Source of the DNA: Rhizobium sp. Leaf371 | Lineage (GTDB): Bacteria > Pseudomonadota > Alphaproteobacteria > Rhizobiales > Rhizobiaceae | Direction of reading: 5' to 3' | DNA length: 64,000 nucleotides | Assembly (NCBI RefSeq): GCF_001424045.1 | Contig: NZ_LMQB01000002.1 | Span: 1-64,000, forward strand | Shown here: one piece after another, positions 28,707-64,000 of the stretch | Position numbering within the stretch: the stretch's first letter is position 1 | Layout: every line of letters begins with the position of its first letter | The notes under the pieces: generated by a model | The model's input: only the letters and a program-made list of their open reading frames with translations | The model's database searches: none | What the model was told of the DNA's origin: nothing | Made by a program: the position numbers and the translations under genes

Positions 28707-28803
28707 TATATTGAATTTATTGTATTTTTTAGGATGTCATCTTGCGTTTTCTGTAACTCCGGCTAATGTTGCGGCATTGATACAACGCAGGGGAGCAGCG
28801 CTC

Positions 28804-30414
28804 ATGGAAGAATTTGGCATTCGCAATCCGGATCTCGGAATCGCTGCACTCGGTTTCGACGATATCGTCGCCGTCCGTTACAATCTGACGCCTGCAGAAC
28901 TCTACGAAGAGTCGCTGCGTCTCGGCGAAGCACAGGTCACGGCCGATGGCGCTCTTCGGGCATTGACCGGCCAGCACACCGGTCGCTCCGCCAAGGACAA
29001 GTTCGTCGTTCGCGATGCGACGACGACCGATCAGATCTGGTGGGATAACAACAAGGAAATGTCGCCGGCGCATTTCGAGACGCTGTGCAACGACATGATG
29101 GACCACGCCCGTGGCCGTTCGCTCTATGTGCAGGACCTGATCGGCGGTGCCGACCGCGACAACGCCCTGCCGACGCGCGTCATCACCGAATTCGCCTGGC
29201 ATTCCCTGTTCATCCGCAACCTGCTGATCCGTCCGGACCGCGAAAGCCTGAAGACGTTCGCGCCGAAGCTGACGATCATCGATCTGCCGCATTTCCGCGC
29301 CGACCCGGCCCGTCACGGCTGCCGCACGGAAACGGTCATCGCCTGCGATCTCGTCAACGGCCTCGTGCTGATCGGCGGCACCTCCTATGCCGGCGAAATG
29401 AAAAAATCGGTCTTCACGGCGCTCAACTACCTGCTGCCGGAAAAGGGCGTCATGCCGATGCACTGCTCGGCGAATGTCGGCCCGGACGGCGACTCCGCCG
29501 TCTTCTTCGGCCTCTCCGGCACCGGCAAGACGACGCTGTCGGCCGATCCGAAGCGCACGCTGATCGGCGACGACGAGCATGGCTGGGGCAAGGACGGCAT
29601 CTTCAACTTCGAGGGTGGCTGCTATGCCAAGACGATCCGCCTTTCGGCCGAAGCTGAGCCGGAAATCTTCGCCACGACCAAGCGTTTCGGCACCGTGCTC
29701 GAGAACGTCATCCTGGATGAAAACCGGGTGCCGAACTTCGACGACGGCTCGCTGACCGAAAATACGCGCTGCGCCTATCCGCTCGACTTCATTCCGAATG
29801 CCAGCGCAACGGGCACGGCCGGTCATCCGAAGACGATCATCATGCTGACGGCCGATGCCTTCGGCGTCATGCCGCCGATCGCCAAGCTGACCGCCGACCA
29901 GGCCATGTACCACTTTCTCTCCGGCTACACCGCCAAGGTCGCCGGCACGGAAAAGGGCGTGACGGAGCCGGAAGCCACCTTCTCGACCTGCTTCGGCGCC
30001 CCCTTCATGCCGCGGCATCCGAGCGAATACGGCAACCTGCTGCGCGACCTGATCGCCGAGCATGGTGTTACCTGCTGGCTCGTCAACACCGGCTGGACCG
30101 GTGGCGCCTACGGCACGGGCCGCCGCATGCCGATCAAGGCCACGCGTGCCCTGCTCGCCGCAGCGCTGGATGGCTCGCTGGCCGAGACCGACATGCGCAC
30201 CGACGCCAATTTCGGCTTCGCGGTTCCGGTCGAAGTTGCCGGCATCGAGGGTGGCATTCTCGACCCGCGCTCCACCTGGGCCGATGGCGTGGCCTATGAT
30301 GCGCAAGCGAGCAAGCTTGCCAACATGTTCGTGGCGAACTTCACCAAGTTCGAAAGCCACGTCGATGGCGGCGTGCGGGATGCAGCACCGGGTCTGGCGA
30401 TCGCTGCGGAATAA
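28804..30414 (+). CDS. pckA: phosphoenolpyruvate carboxykinase (ATP)
   Basis: This 536-residue enzyme converts oxaloacetate and ATP to PEP at the entry to gluconeogenesis. The P-loop [14 protein letters not shown] lies near residue 237 and the family segment [10 protein letters not shown] follows. The ATG is preceded by AGGGGAG. It diverges from chvI, as in other Rhizobiaceae, and ends in a strong terminator. Growth on C4-dicarboxylates depends on it in rhizobia. Confidence 0.97.
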
Positions 30415-35600: not shown

Positions 35601-35793
35601 GGCGGAAATGCTGGCCGACGAATCACTTGCACAGTTCACCGGTCTGCTGCGGGCGTTGCAATCGGGTCAGCGCGGCTTTGTCTCGCGCGTGATCGTCCAG
35701 AAGGAGAAATCCTATGGCGGCGAATATGATCACCTGGCACGCGTGGCCGAGTGGTCGACCGCGGATGGCGAAGAGGAGACGGGGGATGCCTGA
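32605..35793 (+). CDS. addB: double-strand break repair helicase-nuclease subunit AddB
   Basis: This 1062-residue protein is the alphaproteobacterial AddB, partner of AddA in end resection for RecA recombination. A RecB-type nuclease motif with VIVDYKTGASPS lies near residue 930. The N-terminal helicase-like region is degenerate, as expected of AddB in this group. The ATG follows AGGGGA. It overlaps addA by eight bases, implying coupled synthesis of the two subunits. Confidence 0.94.
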   Translation: MTPARQNVFTIPAGVPFLKTLVHAICDGAIVPEYRYDPADPLSLAGVTIFVPTRRAARVLRSEFVDCLGARSAILPVIRALGETDDDSGFFDAEMPAVLDLAPPLTGPARLIELSRLILAWRNTLPRIVTELHGDSPLIAPASPADALWLARNLVQIIDDIETEDLDWTSLGTLDASNYAQWWTLTLEFLEIASQFWPARLAELSRSSPARHRNAILEAESHRIVAGAIDGPVIIAGSTGSIPATARLILAVQKLAQGAIVLPGLDETMTETDWNLIDPPATDAARRDDSASRSHPQYGFVRLLRRMGIFRSEVVSIGTVETDLGDRAETLSHAFLPVEATSSWDAVRRSLDAGRVEAAFADAALIEAINEREEATAIALSLRLALQKDEECQAALITPDRDLARRVAAELQRFGIEADDSAGTPLASTPQGTLLRLMLDVALRPGDPVAITTLMKHPLARFGVSPERLRPAATLLELLALRGGTVPADIADLRPLLDEAAPRRRADRHAPEWLTQVSDADIEEARAVAGAIATAVEPLVAMLVRRRKGAGGFSTSLTLSDWAERTGRALEGVATTETGDLGALWSGEAGAALADLLRAVIEADGQIEADGGQWCEAVEALMAGSAVKPRAMRHPRVFIFGALEARLQSVDLVVLGGMNEGTWPGQTANDPFLSRSMKTGIGLEPPERRIGQLAHDLQMACGTRRLVFSRSLRKGATPTVASRWLQRLLAVGGKDLGERLRENGRDRLRYAALLDARPDTPLARRPEPKPDFALQPKRYSFSEVGRLRRDPYSIYSRRILRLQPIDGFNADPGAAERGTIYHAIVERFAKSTVDPATAEAQIVMKELIDAAFDEQRLPVHIDVIWRPRFAAVGRAFIDWEISRKDGIRQSFLERYAKFQVGVADIELTGMADRIDIGPDGEAVIVDYKTGASPSVKEARALLDPQLPLEAAALKAGAFDTVGKRHPASLLYVRLKPGDRFEVDEVNNEGRAKGDAEPKTAEMLADESLAQFTGLLRALQSGQRGFVSRVIVQKEKSYGGEYDHLARVAEWSTADGEEETGDA

Positions 35794-38700
35794 CGATCTC
35801 GCACCGACGAGCGGCTCGCCCGCCGACTGGCTGAACTGGACGACACAGCAGCAGGCGCTCGCCTCGGACCCGAAACGATCGGCTTGGGTGTCGGCCAATG
35901 CCGGATCGGGCAAAACCCATGTGCTGACGCAGCGTGTCATCCGGCTGCTTCTCTCGGGATGCCGCGCCTCGGCCATTCTCTGCCTGACCTACACGAAGGC
36001 GGCGGCCGCGGAAATGTCGAACCGCGTCTTCGAGCGTCTCGGCGAATGGGTGACGCTGGACGACGCGACGCTGTCGGCGCGCATCACCGCACTCGAAGGG
36101 CAGGCGCCGAGCGCTGACACGGTTGCCGAGGCACGGCGTCTGTTTGCCCGTGCGCTGGAAACGCCGGGCGGGCTGAAGATCCAGACGATCCACGCCTTTT
36201 GCGAAGCGCTGCTGCATCAGTTTCCGCTCGAAGCCAATGTGGCCGGGCACTTTTCCGTGCTGGATGACCGGACCGCGACGATCCTTCTGGCCGACGCACG
36301 TCGCCTTCTCCTCACGGCTGCCGCGACGGAAGGCGATCCGGTGCTGACCGGCGCCTTCGAGACCGTTCTCTCGCTGGCCGACGATACCGGGCTCGAAAGC
36401 CTGCTCTCGATGATCGTCGCCAACCGGACCGCACTTCAGGTCTTTCTGAGCGAAGCCGAACAGCGCGGCGGCACGGAGCCGGTCCTCCGCGACGCGCTGG
36501 GCCTGTCTGCGGAGGAGACGGCAGACAGCTTCGTCGCGCAGTTCTGGCCGCTGGCAGGCCTCAATGGTCCGGATCTGACGCGCTATATCGATCTTTGCCG
36601 CGCCTCGGGCGGCGCCAAGGTACGGGATTTCGCCGATGGGCTGGCCGTTGCGGCAGAGCTGAAGACACCGCTCCAGCGCTATCAGGCCGTTCGCGAACTT
36701 TTCTTCTCCGCCTCGTCGGGCAAGCCGCGCGCGATCTCGGGCTTCTTTTCCGCACCGCTGCGCAAGGCGGCGCCCGATCTCGAAGACAAGGTGCAGGCCG
36801 CCTATGACGCGGTCATCGCGCTTTCCGACAGGCTGGCGCTCCTGCACATGTTCGAGGCGACGCAAGCCGCCATGGTGCTGGCCGAGCGGCTGACGCACGA
36901 CTACGAGGACATCAAGAAAAGCCGCAGCCAGCTCGATTTCGACGATCTGATCAACCGCACCGCCCGGCTGCTGACACGTGCGGACGTCGGGGCCTGGGTG
37001 CATTACAAGCTCGACCAGGGCATCGATCATATCCTCGTGGACGAGGCGCAGGATACGAGCCCGGTGCAGTGGTCGATCATCCGGTCGCTGGCCGAGGATT
37101 TCTTCACCGGCGACAGCGCCCGCGGGCGGCATCGCACGCTCTTTGCCGTCGGCGACGAGAAGCAGTCGATCTACTCGTTCCAGGGCGCGCGACCGGAGCG
37201 TTTTTCGGAAGAGGAGCGCGAGGCGAGGCGGCGAATCGATGCCAGCGGGCTCGCCTTCAGCCCCGTACAGCTGCAGCTCTCCTTCCGTTCGACCGAGGAC
37301 GTGCTGTCGGCCGTCGACACCGTGTTTCGCCAGCCCGCGCATGCGCGCGGCCTCAGCGCCCGCAACGAGCCCGTCGTGCATGCCTCCAACCGTGTCGGCC
37401 ATCCCGGTCTGGTCGAGATCTGGGATGCCATCGCGCCCGCGCCGAGCTTCGAGGAAGAGGACTGGACAGCCGCCTTCGATGCGACGCCGGAAAATGCGCC
37501 GGCGAACATTCTGGCCGAACGCATCGCGGCGACGCTTGCAAGCTGGATCGGCACCGAGACCATCATCGAGAAGACCACGCGTCGCGTCATGCGGCCGGGG
37601 GACGTGATCGTGCTGGTGCGCAAGCGCGATGCCTTCGTCAACGCGCTGATGCGCGCCCTGAAGACCCGGCACGACATCCCCGTGGCCGGTGCCGACCGGC
37701 TGGTGCTGACGGCGCATATCGCCGTGCAGGACCTGATGGCGCTTGGCCGCTTCCTGCTCTTGCCGCAGGACGACCTGTCCCTCGCCGCCGTGCTGAAAAG
37801 CCCGCTTTTTGCGGTGACCGAAGAGATGCTGGCAGAGGCCGCGACCCTGCGGCCGCTCGGCCAAAGCCTCTGGTCCGCGCTTCAGAGATCGGATGATCCC
37901 GCTCTGGAGCCGGTCGTCGCTCGGCTGGCGAACTATCGGACACTCGCGGATACGCTCTCCGTTCATGATCTCTATGCGCGCCTGCTGGGTGCGGATGGCG
38001 GCCGCGCGGCGTTTCTGTCGCGGCTCGGCAGCGAGGTCAGTGATATCCTCGACGAATTCCTGACCTTCTGCCTCGATCACGAAGCCAACGGGCTTCCGGG
38101 TCTGCAGAGCTTTATCTCCGGGCTTGAGCTGGAAGCGCCGACGATCAAGCGGGAGCAGGACAAGGAGCGCAACGAGGTGCGCGTCATGACCGTGCATGCG
38201 GCCAAGGGGCTGGAGGCGCCGGTCGTCTTTCTGGTCGATGGCAGCGGCAAGGCCTTCAACAACCAGCATGTTCCGGCACTCCGCATGGTGCCCTCCCCGC
38301 ATGGGCGCGGCCCTGGCGGCGAGATCCCGATCATTCCCGTGTGGCGACCGCCACGGGCCGCCTCCAACAGCCTGATCGACGGCGATACCCAGCGGCTGAA
38401 GGCAGGCGCCGAGGAGGAATATCGCCGGCTGCTCTATGTGGGCATGACGCGGGCGGCGGACCGCCTGATCGTCTGCGGCTATCGCGGCAAGCTCGACAAT
38501 CCCGAGAGCTGGCATGCGATGGTGAAGGCCGGCCTTTCAGCGGATACGGAAGGCCGTCTCATGCCCGTCGATTTTTCAGTGGCCGGGCTGCAATGGACCG
38601 GCGCGCGCTGGCATGCGCTGACGAAGCGGACGGAATTCGACATCGAGTCCGTGAAGAGCGACATCACGGCCGAAGACGTCGGGGCCTTGCCGCAGGCCTT

Positions 38701-39355
38701 GCTCGACCCCCTGCCGCCGCAGCGTCACCTCCCCCGTCCCTTGAGCCCGTCCGGAGCCGGCTTTACGGTGGAGGCGGATGCGGCGGACACGGTCACCGGT
38801 TCGCGCCTCTTTTCCGAAGACAAGCGAACCGGGCCGTCTTTGTTGCGCGGTGCGATCCTGCATCGGCTGCTGCAGGTTCTGCCCGCCCGCGCGCCGGGGG
38901 AACGGGAGGCCGATGCCGCCCTTTACCTGTCGCGCGCCGTTCCCGGCTGGAGCGAAAAGCAGCGGACGGAAATCGTGCGCTCCGTTCTTGCGGTCATCGA
39001 GGATCCTGCGCTTTCCGCTCTGTTCTCTGCCAACAGCCGCGCCGAGGTCTCAATCATGGGAACGCTTCGACTCGGCGCGCGCGATCACGCGGTCTCGGGA
39101 CGAATCGATCGTCTGGCCGTCTCAGACCAGGACGTGGTGATCGCCGACTTCAAGACGAACCGCGACGTTCCCGGCGATGTCGGTGCCGTGCCCCTCGTCT
39201 ATCGAACACAGCTCGCGATCTACCGGGAGATCCTGCGGCCGCTCTATCCGGCGCGTCGGTTTCGCTGCATCCTGGTCTTTACCGAGGGGCCGCGCGCGAT
39301 CGAGGTATCGGACGCGCTTCTCGATGCCGCGCTTGTGGACCTTGCGACAAAATGA
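35786..39355 (+). CDS. addA: double-strand break repair helicase-nuclease subunit AddA
   Basis: This 1189-residue UvrD-type helicase has Walker A NAGSGKTHVLTQRV near 39, Walker B HILVDEAQDTSP near 420, and IYSFQGARPE. The C-terminal nuclease site VIADFKTNRDVP lies near 1120. It forms the AddAB complex with the overlapping upstream gene. The chosen ATG (MPDDLAP) lies within the end of addB. Confidence 0.95.
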   Translation: MPDDLAPTSGSPADWLNWTTQQQALASDPKRSAWVSANAGSGKTHVLTQRVIRLLLSGCRASAILCLTYTKAAAAEMSNRVFERLGEWVTLDDATLSARITALEGQAPSADTVAEARRLFARALETPGGLKIQTIHAFCEALLHQFPLEANVAGHFSVLDDRTATILLADARRLLLTAAATEGDPVLTGAFETVLSLADDTGLESLLSMIVANRTALQVFLSEAEQRGGTEPVLRDALGLSAEETADSFVAQFWPLAGLNGPDLTRYIDLCRASGGAKVRDFADGLAVAAELKTPLQRYQAVRELFFSASSGKPRAISGFFSAPLRKAAPDLEDKVQAAYDAVIALSDRLALLHMFEATQAAMVLAERLTHDYEDIKKSRSQLDFDDLINRTARLLTRADVGAWVHYKLDQGIDHILVDEAQDTSPVQWSIIRSLAEDFFTGDSARGRHRTLFAVGDEKQSIYSFQGARPERFSEEEREARRRIDASGLAFSPVQLQLSFRSTEDVLSAVDTVFRQPAHARGLSARNEPVVHASNRVGHPGLVEIWDAIAPAPSFEEEDWTAAFDATPENAPANILAERIAATLASWIGTETIIEKTTRRVMRPGDVIVLVRKRDAFVNALMRALKTRHDIPVAGADRLVLTAHIAVQDLMALGRFLLLPQDDLSLAAVLKSPLFAVTEEMLAEAATLRPLGQSLWSALQRSDDPALEPVVARLANYRTLADTLSVHDLYARLLGADGGRAAFLSRLGSEVSDILDEFLTFCLDHEANGLPGLQSFISGLELEAPTIKREQDKERNEVRVMTVHAAKGLEAPVVFLVDGSGKAFNNQHVPALRMVPSPHGRGPGGEIPIIPVWRPPRAASNSLIDGDTQRLKAGAEEEYRRLLYVGMTRAADRLIVCGYRGKLDNPESWHAMVKAGLSADTEGRLMPVDFSVAGLQWTGARWHALTKRTEFDIESVKSDITAEDVGALPQALLDPLPPQRHLPRPLSPSGAGFTVEADAADTVTGSRLFSEDKRTGPSLLRGAILHRLLQVLPARAPGEREADAALYLSRAVPGWSEKQRTEIVRSVLAVIEDPALSALFSANSRAEVSIMGTLRLGARDHAVSGRIDRLAVSDQDVVIADFKTNRDVPGDVGAVPLVYRTQLAIYREILRPLYPARRFRCILVFTEGPRAIEVSDALLDAALVDLATK

Positions 39356-58871: not shown

Positions 58872-59505
58872 CGATCGCACGCAATCTTCTGAGTTCGTTC
58901 AGCAGCGGCAGGAGGGGCAAACCGAGGATCGTGAAATAGTCGCCCTCTATCGCCTCGAACAGCTGGATCCCCTCGCCTTCCAGCTGGTAGGCCCCGACAC
59001 TGGTCAGCGCCTTGGTGCCGACGCGCTCCAGATGGCGGGCGATGAAGCTGTCATCCAGCGGTCGCATCGTCAGGCGCGCGGTCGAGATATGCGACCACAC
59101 AGTCCGACCGTCCTGATGAAGCGCGATGGCGCTGTTCAACTGATGGGTCTTGCCCGACAGCGCCCGCAAGTGCTCATGCGCTTCCGCAATCGAGGTGGGT
59201 TTGTGAAAGACGCGGGCGCCGAGCGACATCGTCTGGTCCGAGCCAATGACCAGAGGACCGCGACCGGTTTCCGTCTCTTCGGTCTTCCCAGATTGCGCCG
59301 CCGCAAGAGCCGAGGCGACGGCTTGCGCCTTCGCCTCGGCCAGGACGGCTGCAACTTTTTCGGGAGAGGCACCTTCTGCTTCGAGCGGCGCTTCCAACGC
59401 GCGTTCGTCGATCGCGGCGGCCTGCCACGAAAAGGCGATGCCGGCATTGGCAAGCAGCATGCGCCGGAACGGGCTCGCGGAGGCGAGGACAAGCTGATGC
59501 GTCAT
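58864..59505 (-). CDS. maf: Maf-like nucleotide pyrophosphatase
   Basis: This 213-residue protein has the family start [14 protein letters not shown] and [11 protein letters not shown]. Maf proteins hydrolyse non-canonical or canonical nucleoside triphosphates, and some inhibit septum formation when overproduced. It lies 30 bases downstream of the PPDK/PEPS regulator gene and overlaps aroE. Confidence 0.94.
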
Positions 59506-59535
59506 GAATGATATTCTCCCTGTGCCGATTGCGGA

Positions 59536-60357
59536 CTAGCGCAGGCGCGGCCTCAGGGCAACGATGGCGGCTGCCGTTTCCTCGATCGAACGACGGGTGA
59601 CATCGATGATCGGCCAGTTGTTGCGCGCGCACAGCGCCCGCGCATATTTCAGTTCCTCGGCAATGGCCGCCCGGTCGGTGTATTCCTGACCGTGAAAGCC
59701 CTGCGTGCTGCCGAGCACCCTGTGCTCCCGCACCTGGGACACGCGGTCGGCCGTGGCGATGAGGCAAACGACCAGCGGTTTCGTTGCCTCCATCAGCCGC
59801 TCCGGCAGAGGCACGCCCGGAACGATCGGAATGTTGGCGGTGCGAATGCCGCGATTGGCGAGGTAGATGCTGGTCGGCGTTTTCGATGTCCGGCTGATCC
59901 CGATCAGGACGACATCGGCATCGTTGAAATCGGCGGGAAGCTGTCCGTCGTCGTGATCCATCGTGAAATTCAACGCGTCGATCCGTGCGAAATAATCCGC
60001 GTCCATCACGTGCTGCGCCCCGGAGCGCCGACGCGACGATGTGCCGAGATAGGTCTGGAACAGATCGATGATCGGCTCCAGCACCGATACGCAGGGTACG
60101 CCGATCTGTTGGCACTGGGCATTGATGATGTCGGAGAGTTCGCGATCGACGATCGTATAGAGAACGATGCCCGGCGCCTTGTCGATGGATTCCAGTACCT
60201 GCATCAATTGTTTGCGGTTTCGGATCAGCGGATAGACGTGCTCCAGCGCGTGATAGGTCTGGAATTGCGCCGCTGCTGCCCGGCCCGCTGCGATGAGCGT
60301 CTCCCCTGTCGAGTCGGAGATCAAATGGAGGTGGAAATAGTTTTTCTGATTGTCCAC
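59536..60357 (-). CDS. ppsR: PPDK/PEP synthase regulatory kinase-pyrophosphorylase (RP001 homologue)
   Basis: This 273-residue DUF299 protein has the P-loop-like [19 protein letters not shown] near 150. Members phosphorylate and dephosphorylate pyruvate phosphate dikinase or PEP synthetase on threonine. It starts with GTG and has only a weak ribosome site. The Rickettsia homologue RP001 and the Caulobacter homologue lie beside the replication origin, and this gene borders the proposed oriC. Confidence 0.94.
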
Positions 60358-60442
60358 GCTATTCTCGGCCGCCTGTTGATGATGGTGGATGACGAGAGCC
60401 TAGGGGCGAGCCGCCCCGGCAGGCAAGGGGAAAACCTCCGAC

Positions 60443-60451
60443 TTATTCACA
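60443..60451 (+). promoter_or_regulatory. DnaA box TTATTCACA
   Basis: Matches TTWTNCACA at every position, on the plus strand within the candidate oriC. Confidence 0.75.
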
Positions 60452-60485
60452 AAGAGGCCCGCGCCGGCGTTCTTTCCGGAGAGCT

Positions 60486-60494
60486 TGTGAAAAA
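60486..60494 (-). promoter_or_regulatory. DnaA box TTTTTCACA
   Basis: Matches TTWTNCACA at every position on the minus strand within the candidate oriC. Confidence 0.65.
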
Positions 60495-60533
60495 GACTCG
60501 CGATGCGACCGATCGCCGCCGACGATCAACAGC

Positions 60534-60542
60534 TCATCCACA
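60534..60542 (+). promoter_or_regulatory. near-consensus DnaA box TCATCCACA
   Basis: One mismatch to TTATCCACA. A weaker minus-strand box AGATCCACA (two mismatches) lies at 60558-60566. Confidence 0.65.
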
Positions 60543-60763
60543 GGCGGAAAATCGAGATGTGGATCTGCAAGTTGCTCCAACAACAGGATAATCCGAGCTT
60601 ACGCTCTATGTTGTCCCTGGAGCGCTCCTTCGTCGTACCGCGAACTTCGGCGGAGGGACGTGCTGGGGACAAAGGACCGACAACCTTTAATCCTTGATAG
60701 TCACCGACTCTAAGAAATAGAAACCCTTAGATTCAAGATTCTATTTTAAGAGGGAAGCTGTGT

Positions 60764-61795
60764 GTGACGTCTGAAAACCGCAAACTCGTCCGGGTTCTGA
60801 ACGGCGAGACACTGACCCCCCCTCCCATCTGGCTGATGCGCCAGGCCGGACGATATCTGCCGGAATATCGCGAGACGCGGGCGCGAGCGGGAAGCTTTCT
60901 CGATCTCTGTTACTCCCCGGACTTTGCCACGGAAGTGACGCTGCAGCCGATCCGACGCTACGCCTTCGACGCGGCCATTCTGTTTTCGGATATCCTCGTC
61001 ATTCCCGATGCCTTGAAGCGGAATGTCCGTTTCGAGGAGGGAAACGGGCCGAAGCTCGATCCGATCGATGTCGCCGGAATTCAGGCTCTCGACGGACGAC
61101 CGGTTGCCGATCATCTGCGTCCCGTGATCGAAACCGTGGCGCGTCTGCGGCGGGAGCTACCGGATGAGACAGCGCTGCTCGGCTTTTGCGGAGCCCCTTG
61201 GACGGTTGCAACCTACATGATCGCCGGGCACGGGACGCCGGACCAGGCGCCGGCCCGCCTGTTCGCCTACCGGCATCCGGAAGCCTTCGACGCACTGCTT
61301 GCCATCCTCGCGGAGCTTTCCGCCGATTATCTGGTTGCGCAGCTCGATGCCGGCGCGGACGCGGTTCAGATCTTTGATTCCTGGGCGGGCGTTCTCGGCG
61401 AAGAGACGTTCGAGCGCTACGCGGTCGCGCCCGTCCGTCGGATCATCGACAGCGTTCGGGCCCGGCGACCGGATGCAAAGATCATCGCCTTTGCCAAGGG
61501 CGCGGGTCTGCTGCTGAAGGACTATCGCCAGAAGACGCAGGCCGACGCGATCGGCCTCGACTGGTCGGTTCCCCTCTCGTTCGCGGTCGATCTGCAGAAG
61601 GAAGGGCCTGTACAGGGCAATCTCGATCCGATGCGGGTGGTCGCCGGGGGGAAGGCGCTCGAAGAAGGCATCGACCGGATCCTCGATCGTCTCGGACAAG
61701 GGCCTCTGATCTTCAATCTCGGTCATGGCATCACGCCGCAGGCCGATCCCGCCCATGTCGCCGATCTCGTCGCCCGTGTCAGGAGGCGCGTATGA
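60764..61795 (+). CDS. hemE: uroporphyrinogen decarboxylase
   Basis: This 343-residue heme-pathway enzyme converts uroporphyrinogen III to coproporphyrinogen III. The N-terminal substrate motif [16 protein letters not shown] lies at 21-36. The central segment [13 protein letters not shown] is also visible. It starts with GTG behind AGAGGGAAG. It is the first gene to the right of the proposed origin, and its stop overlaps the hemJ ATG. Confidence 0.97.
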
Positions 61796-62355
61796 GCACC
61801 TCTGGGCGCGATGGGGATGGTTCCCGCCAGACCGATGCCCCGGCAGGCCGGAGATCGCGTCTGCGGGCCTTTGTGGCGCTTTCCGTCCTCGTCGCCATCG
61901 TCGTCGGCCTGATCGCCTGGCAGCCGGCGGATCTCATGCTCTGGATCAAGGCGCTGCATGTCATCGCCGTCATCTCCTGGATGGCGGGGCTTCTCTACAT
62001 GCCGCGGCTGTTCATCTACCACACCGACGCCGAGCCGGGCTCGCAGACATCCGAGACGTTCAAGGTCATGGAGCAGCGGCTTCTGAAAGTGATCATGCGC
62101 CCGGCCATGATGATCACCTGGACGCTCGGGCTCTATCTCGCCTGGAGCGTCTACGGTTTTCAGGGCGGCTGGCTGCACGCGAAAATTCTGGCGGTGATCC
62201 TGCTGACGGCCGTCCACCTGCATTACGCCGACGCCGTCGGGCGCTTCTCGCGGGACAGCGCGCGACGGACAGCGCGCTATTGGCGGCTGATGAACGAGGT
62301 CCCGACCGTTCTGATGATCGTCATCGTCATCCTCGTCATCGTGAAGCCGTTTTAG
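61792..62355 (+). CDS. hemJ: protoporphyrinogen oxidase HemJ
   Basis: This 187-residue membrane protein has about four or five hydrophobic segments. Conserved residues lie in [20 protein letters not shown] and in the [17 protein letters not shown] segment. HemJ oxidises protoporphyrinogen IX in most proteobacteria lacking HemG or HemY. The overlap with hemE (ATGA) couples two heme-synthesis steps. Confidence 0.92.
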
Positions 62356-63940: not shown

Positions 63941-64000
63941 ATGCGGATGGCGGCGGCAAGCGACACGATCTATTCCCTTTCGTCCGGTGGACTGCCGTCC
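63941..64000 (+). CDS. mnmE: tRNA modification GTPase MnmE, N-terminal fragment cut by the window edge
   Basis: The ATG follows GAAGGG and the 20 codons before the edge include SDTIYSLSSGGLPS, the typical MnmE/TrmE N terminus. A second ATG two codons on is an alternative start. MnmE with MnmG modifies wobble uridine in tRNAs. The hemE-hemJ-rho-mnmE order supports the call. Confidence 0.85.
   Translation, partial: MRMAAASDTIYSLSSGGLPS

Follow-up and report, generated by a model that had tools for sequence, protein, structure and literature searches.

The gap between an RP001 homologue and hemE as the probable chromosomal origin of a Rhizobium strain, and a conserved GANTC-bearing block within it

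The origin of the Sinorhizobium meliloti chromosome maps beside hemE, an adjacency for which our literature search, within the texts it reached, returned no paper naming hemE. The closest well-described system is Cori of Caulobacter crescentus. According to the account in PMC1914354, it occupies the gap between hemE and the RP001 (COG1806) homologue and carries five boxes for DnaA, five sites for CtrA and one for IHF; this account backs the initial annotation of the DNA studied here, which had drawn on the same arrangement. We analysed a window of 64,000 nucleotides from Rhizobium sp. Leaf371, comprising bases 1–64000 of a contig of 159,084 bp (C2) in a 5.09-Mb draft of 29 contigs. The window contains a gap between the same two genes.

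The gap resembles Cori in its flanking genes, DnaA boxes and AT-rich stretch, and differs in its DnaA boxes (two exact, one weak), in a single weak IHF-like site and in a GANTC-bearing block specific to the family. It falls outside the narrow Caulobacter type of Cori, in which there are several CtrA sites, as no CtrA site (TTAA-N7-TTAA, up to one mismatch) was found in the gap. Other hemE-linked origin regions of the Rhizobiaceae, such as that of R. leguminosarum Norway (L031), agree with the present gap in length, in the position of box 1 and in the block, whereas boxes 2 and 3 vary among them both in number and in quality. As a candidate origin the gap is an ordinary one of the alphaproteobacterial hemE type, apart from one unusually conserved element.

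Gene context and DnaA boxes of the gap

The position of the gap between hemE and COG1806 is that of the alphaproteobacterial hemE-type oriC (Table 1). The left-hand gene was assigned with model PRK05339, which we take to be equivalent to RP001/COG1806, and hemE has its best named match in Ferranicluibacter rubi (Rhizobiaceae; 95% identity). Genes point outward on both sides, as had been annotated: five run leftward (the RP001 homologue, maf, aroE, coaE and dnaQ) and four rightward (hemE, hemJ, rho and then mnmE, which starts at 63941 and runs past the end of the window). Near the locus are encoded rho, mnmE, mnmG and holA, together with a gyrB assigned by reading rather than by a model match; from these genes we infer that C2 belongs to the main chromosome. 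The dnaA gene lies on another contig, C23, with no exact DnaA box within 1.5 kb of it and the closest one on C23 about 177 kb away. Elsewhere in the window, 35714–39355 encodes an AddA of alphaproteobacterial type and 28711–30414 a PEP carboxykinase of the ATP type, neither of them out of the ordinary. A region of R. leguminosarum used to seek the left neighbour of C2 held genes that looked accessory by eye.

Table 1. Coordinates of features at the hemE locus (positions of the window)
Feature	Position	Strand	Basis
RP001/COG1806 homologue (PPDK/PEP synthase regulator, PRK05339)	59536..60357	-	340 bits, cut-off 225
Probable oriC region, gap between RP001/COG1806 homologue and hemE	60358..60763	.	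Flanking genes and gaps of relatives
Conserved CTGTTGAT adjoining start of RP001 homologue	60373..60380	.	60373–60379 at least 90% conserved in 29 gaps
DnaA box 1, TTATTCACA	60443..60451	+	Exact; exact in 28/29 aligned Rhizobiaceae gaps
DnaA box 2, TTTTTCACA	60486..60494	-	Exact; in 29 gaps: exact 4, up to 1 mismatch 17, up to 2 mismatches 25
Weak DnaA box 3, TCATCCACA	60534..60542	+	1 mismatch; in 29 gaps: exact 7, up to 1 mismatch 16, up to 2 mismatches 23
AT-rich low-stability stretch, candidate DNA unwinding element	60680..60763	.	Composition and stability
Highly conserved 39-bp block, proposed opening/regulatory element	60685..60723	+	Alignment of 29 gaps
IHF-like site, weak	60687..60699	-	1 mismatch; equalled by 160/1000 gap shuffles
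Core GACTCTAAGAAATAGAA with GANTC (CcrM-type) site	60706..60722	+	Pattern searches of genome, order, family and gaps
hemE, uroporphyrinogen decarboxylase	60764..61795	+	TIGR01464, 406 bits, cut-off 303

Homologous gaps were compared in a set of 69, made up of the window and 68 of the best 80 relatives. The 12 relatives omitted, 11 whose fetched DNA gave no RP001 match and one, L043, whose match was partial, were looked at separately. An alignment of 29 sequences was made from a Rhizobiaceae-like subset picked by hand out of the 69 gaps. Gap length is 391–406 bp in 53 of the 69, with a full range of 378–754 bp. The CTGTTGAT that is conserved across this aligned subset, close by the RP001 homologue, may be promoter sequence or a weak site for a protein. 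One record titled Bacillus subtilis strain SK6B4 (L049) has a Hyphomicrobiales-type hemE origin locus, so that its label seems wrong or its assembly mixed.

DnaA boxes were sought on both strands as TTWTNCACA, a pattern that, like those for IHF, CtrA, KOPS and parS and the −35 consensus, belongs to general background knowledge. The scan recovered the two exact boxes and the one-mismatch box of the initial annotation at the same positions and on the same strands. Boxes 1 and 2 are the only exact DnaA boxes on the 159-kb contig. Their number alone is unremarkable, since at least two exact boxes occur in 16 of 100 shuffles of the 64-kb window; one-mismatch boxes in the window are at chance level (19 seen, 23 expected), and the pattern itself is not enriched genome-wide, with 72 exact boxes against 68 for a reversed control pattern. 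The clustering goes beyond chance, as expected of a hemE-type oriC. Boxes 1 and 2, 43 bp apart, are the closest pair among the 72 exact boxes of the genome, where 0.043 such pairs are expected at random, and when the gap was put through 1000 dinucleotide shuffles, two exact boxes never appeared. Moreover, at least one exact box is present in 53 of the 69 homologous gaps and absent from 16, compared with 29 of 1576 length-matched control windows taken from the same loci. Taken together, the 69 gaps hold 78 exact boxes, where shuffles average 1.45.

DNA stability, partitioning sites and GC skew

The AT-rich stretch annotated next to hemE is borne out by composition, with 35–40% GC in 60-bp windows across 60680–60779 against 60–63% in the surrounding 4-kb windows. 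Only two separate places in the 159 kb are less stable than the 60-mer at 60688. Judged by composition and stability alone, the gap thus has the easily opened, AT-rich stretch of a hemE-type oriC. Sites for other origin proteins were also sought. IHF-like sites total 68 over the 69 gaps against 30.9 in shuffles, and CtrA-type sites occur in 17 of the 69 gaps, with 24 sites in total against 11.4 in shuffles. An IHF reading of TTAATCCTTGATA was rejected, as its conserved letters include positions that are free in the IHF consensus and its significance in a single gap is poor. A strand bias of the KOPS-like GGGNAGGG was likewise discarded because the counts are too small and show no clear split at the gap: on C2 there are 4 copies left and 14 right on the plus strand and 3 left and 7 right on the minus strand, and in the R. 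leguminosarum tiling 15 and 18 on plus and 7 and 1 on minus.

ParB of S. meliloti is described in PMC7822825 as binding at and around oriC. Across alphaproteobacteria, PMC8116508 places parAB near the origin in almost all genomes, with some exceptions in Rhizobiales, and parS1 of A. tumefaciens equals the B. subtilis consensus as given in PMC9239152. We counted parS-like places as matches to GTTTCACGTGAAAC with up to one mismatch, each palindromic place once. All seven in the 5.09-Mb draft fall at 21.7–93.2 kb of C2 and none elsewhere. At about 67.8–69.6 kb, C2 also encodes a ParA-like protein, whose best model scores below its cut-off, and a member of the ParB family, which clears its own. 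The gap therefore has parS and parAB close by, as a hemE-type oriC should. In 400-kb tilings around hemE, R. leguminosarum has five parS-like places and Mesorhizobium ciceri three; none was found in 20 coarse 20-kb samples from each of these genomes.

A GC-skew minimum lying elsewhere had been named in the initial annotation as the observation that would speak against an origin here. On C2 no minimum was found at the gap: the cumulative skew does not turn there, its minimum is at base 508, and the mean skew is +0.017 to the left of the gap and +0.028 to the right. Of four relatives, three change skew sign in the interval containing hemE. All four were sampled coarsely, as 20 stretches of 20 kb per chromosome; the R. 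leguminosarum (G001) and M. ciceri (G002) records are titled complete, and the other two (G432 and G381) are chromosome-size contigs whose closure is not known. In G432 the motif is at 3.333 Mb and the sign flips between the samples taken at 3.23 and 3.42 Mb, one sample elsewhere being discordant; in G381 the motif is at 4.353 Mb, the flip falls between 4.32 and 4.56 Mb and two samples are discordant. In R. leguminosarum the coarse sum turns between the 4.42- and 4.66-Mb samples, with hemE at 4.51 Mb, and the 400-kb tiling reaches its minimum where the 20-kb bin starting next to hemE ends. Contrary signs in the same chromosome are a short rising arm and a half-split that is best at 3.74–3.92 Mb, about 0.6 Mb off, with halves of the same sign. 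M. ciceri has no skew minimum or turn at hemE. The skew evidence is mixed: it supports the origin in two relatives and partly in a third, is contrary in M. ciceri and shows no turn on C2.

A conserved block with a GANTC core

The most conserved part of the gap is a block of 39 bp. Over the 29 aligned gaps its mean identity to the window is 93%, against 44% in the rest of the gap, and it holds 22 of the 41 invariant columns. Its core, searched as GACTCTNAGAAWNANAA, is single in the genome even when two mismatches to its own form are allowed. In an order-wide sample of 297 genomes the pattern was present in 10, all among the 13 of the window's family, and in none of the 284 others; its reversed control matched two genomes. 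A family sample gave matches in 103 of 247 genomes (99 once, 4 twice) and one for the reversed control, the pattern being absent from the other 144. Thirty of these 107 matches were fetched with their surroundings, and in 29 of them the core lies 53–102 bp before hemE, the remaining one being elsewhere.

The GANTC site at the start of the core is maintained while its free letter changes. A core match with up to four substitutions was found in 65 of the 69 gaps, and its first five letters are GACTC in 55, GAGTC in 5 and GATTC in 1, so that GANTC is kept in 61 of 65 under a match rule that is biased towards GACTC. A second GANTC begins 8 bp further on in 32 of the 65. GAGTC or GACTCA variants of the core were noted in some relatives. 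Over the gaps as a whole there are 275 GANTC sites against a shuffle mean of 147.5, or 9.6 per kb compared with 2.3 per kb of flanks; the four in the window's own gap are matched by 264 of 1000 shuffles and hence are not an enrichment singly. For dividing Ensifer cultures, PMC8725594 reports that GANTC methylation increases from origin to terminus.

The core can also be read as A-centred triplets, AAG-AAA-TAG-AAA, a feature it would share with the basal unwinding system of Bacillus subtilis, which consists of DnaA-boxes and DnaA-trios. The rule stated in PMC8287927 is a DnaA box within 16 bp of the triplets, of which such a module has at least three of the form NAN. Here, unlike in B. subtilis, no box with up to two mismatches was seen by eye within that distance, on a provisional reading of the strand rule. 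For want of an acceptable box seen beside the triplets, the trio reading is kept only as a weak idea. A literature search at the level of titles and abstracts, with most subscription papers and all figures outside its reach, returned no paper on bacterial origins for the core string. The block is apparently undescribed in the literature searched, a search that does not establish absence of publication.

Loci that lack one of the two neighbouring genes bear on what the block belongs to. Eight fetched loci (L040, L042, L047, L054 and L199–L202) have maf beside hemE, with no RP001 homologue matched there. All eight carry the core with up to one mismatch, and no exact DnaA box was seen in their fetched DNA. 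At L047 not even a one-mismatch box occurs in the 500 bp upstream, and the whole genome gave no RP001 homologue. A core without an exact box at these loci weakens the tie between the block and DnaA boxes. Aureimonas glaciei (G540), one of these eight and a genome in which no RP001 homologue was found, still has the core before hemE, with maf as the left neighbour. Conversely, in Pseudaminobacter soli (G538; L062 and L259, the latter at 2317–2742 of its contig C49) hemE is missing at the locus, and the RP001 homologue is followed by a 426-bp gap and then hemJ and rho. Within this gap are an exact DnaA box and a copy of the core that carries two mismatches (GAGTCGTAGAATCAGAA), and all six parS-like places of the genome are on the contig that carries the RP001 homologue. 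The sole hemE found in this genome, on contig C34, has no core match with up to five substitutions in the 700 bp upstream. In a metagenome-assembled genome (G539; L063, L257/L260) there are two hemE genes, the copy at the origin locus with a core (one mismatch) and the copy on another contig without one; the hemE of P. soli may therefore be a second copy and not the original moved. Retention of the core in A. glaciei and P. soli indicates that the block stays with the locus when either neighbouring gene is missing.

Alternative readings and a proposed mechanism

Promoter activity is the main rival explanation for the block. The origin would then lie here all the same, and the block would serve the hemE-hemJ-rho operon as its promoter or leader rather than act as an origin element, a reading we treat as a serious possibility though not as the probable one. 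It would account for the position of the core ahead of hemE in nearly all fetched loci and for the CTTGAT in the block, which resembles the alphaproteobacterial −35 consensus. It also fits the eight loci with maf beside hemE, L047 included, in which the core precedes hemE though an exact box was unseen. Even in P. soli the core, now preceding hemJ, could serve that operon; a promoter would likewise stay with the locus, and so the promoter reading stands alongside that of an origin element. Between the supposed −35 and −10, however, 12 of the 17 spacer columns are invariant over the 29 sequences, which is unlike an ordinary promoter. The −10 fit is poor by eye, and more distant relatives lose the −35-like part while keeping the core. 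That hemE of P. soli has no upstream core argues in the same direction, a weak point, as this hemE may be the second copy and the origin-side copy lost.

Two further readings concern the gap itself. The origin could be elsewhere, for instance beside dnaA or at the skew minimum of the whole chromosome, with the boxes here regulating hemE or the RP001 homologue. We consider this very unlikely: although C2 has no local skew minimum and dnaA is on another contig, dnaA has no exact box near it, parS and parAB are on the contig of the hemE locus, and the sampled relatives flip skew sign in the hemE interval in three cases of four. The conservation might instead reflect a small RNA or other transcribed element, as the block is non-coding and highly conserved. 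Such an element is likewise very unlikely: no Rfam match was obtained in 59400–61900 even at E 1, and it would leave the conserved DnaA boxes unexplained.

The flanking genes, the box cluster and its conservation, the concentration of parS-like places, the proximity of parAB and the skew of three relatives together support the initial proposal that this is oriC of the main chromosome. Counting against it are the missing skew minimum on C2 and in M. ciceri, the displaced half-split in R. leguminosarum, the presence of just two exact boxes here and of none in 16 homologous gaps and the eight loci with maf beside hemE, the lack of a CtrA-type site, and the exceptions to parAB proximity in Rhizobiales. 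On these sequence grounds, the gap at 60358–60763 very probably is the origin. The best-supported mechanism we infer is DnaA-driven initiation at boxes 1–3 with opening at about 60685–60763. DnaA would bind the three boxes, the strands would open in the AT-rich stretch beside hemE, and helicase would be loaded there, sending out two forks in opposite directions. We propose that the conserved block, on the side nearest hemE, forms part of the opening site; CcrM methylation of its GANTC may distinguish an origin that has already fired from one that has not. ParB bound to the parS sites close by would segregate the new origin copies.

As for the block, we read it as a putative opening or regulatory element of the rhizobial oriC. 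A more specific proposal, to which we attach only a low probability, is that it is a Rhizobiaceae-specific origin element in which a strand-opening site is fused with a CcrM methylation site. The 13-mers of E. coli oriC carry GATC sites, and by analogy both would be AT-rich opening elements bearing a cell-cycle methylase site; the sequence and the methylase (GANTC and CcrM here) are different. If the proposal is true, methylation state would license or block opening once per cycle, making the block a GANTC counterpart of the GATC-bearing 13-mers.

An origin at the place that the alphaproteobacterial rule predicts is mainly good annotation. The block may matter more: of the 103 genomes that carry its core, 99 have one copy, and the core is confined to one family in the order-wide sample, is retained when a neighbouring gene is missing and has a GANTC whose free letter changes. 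It offers a small and precise target for studying the opening and timing of the rhizobial origin, a question with a bearing on endoreduplication in nodule bacteroids.
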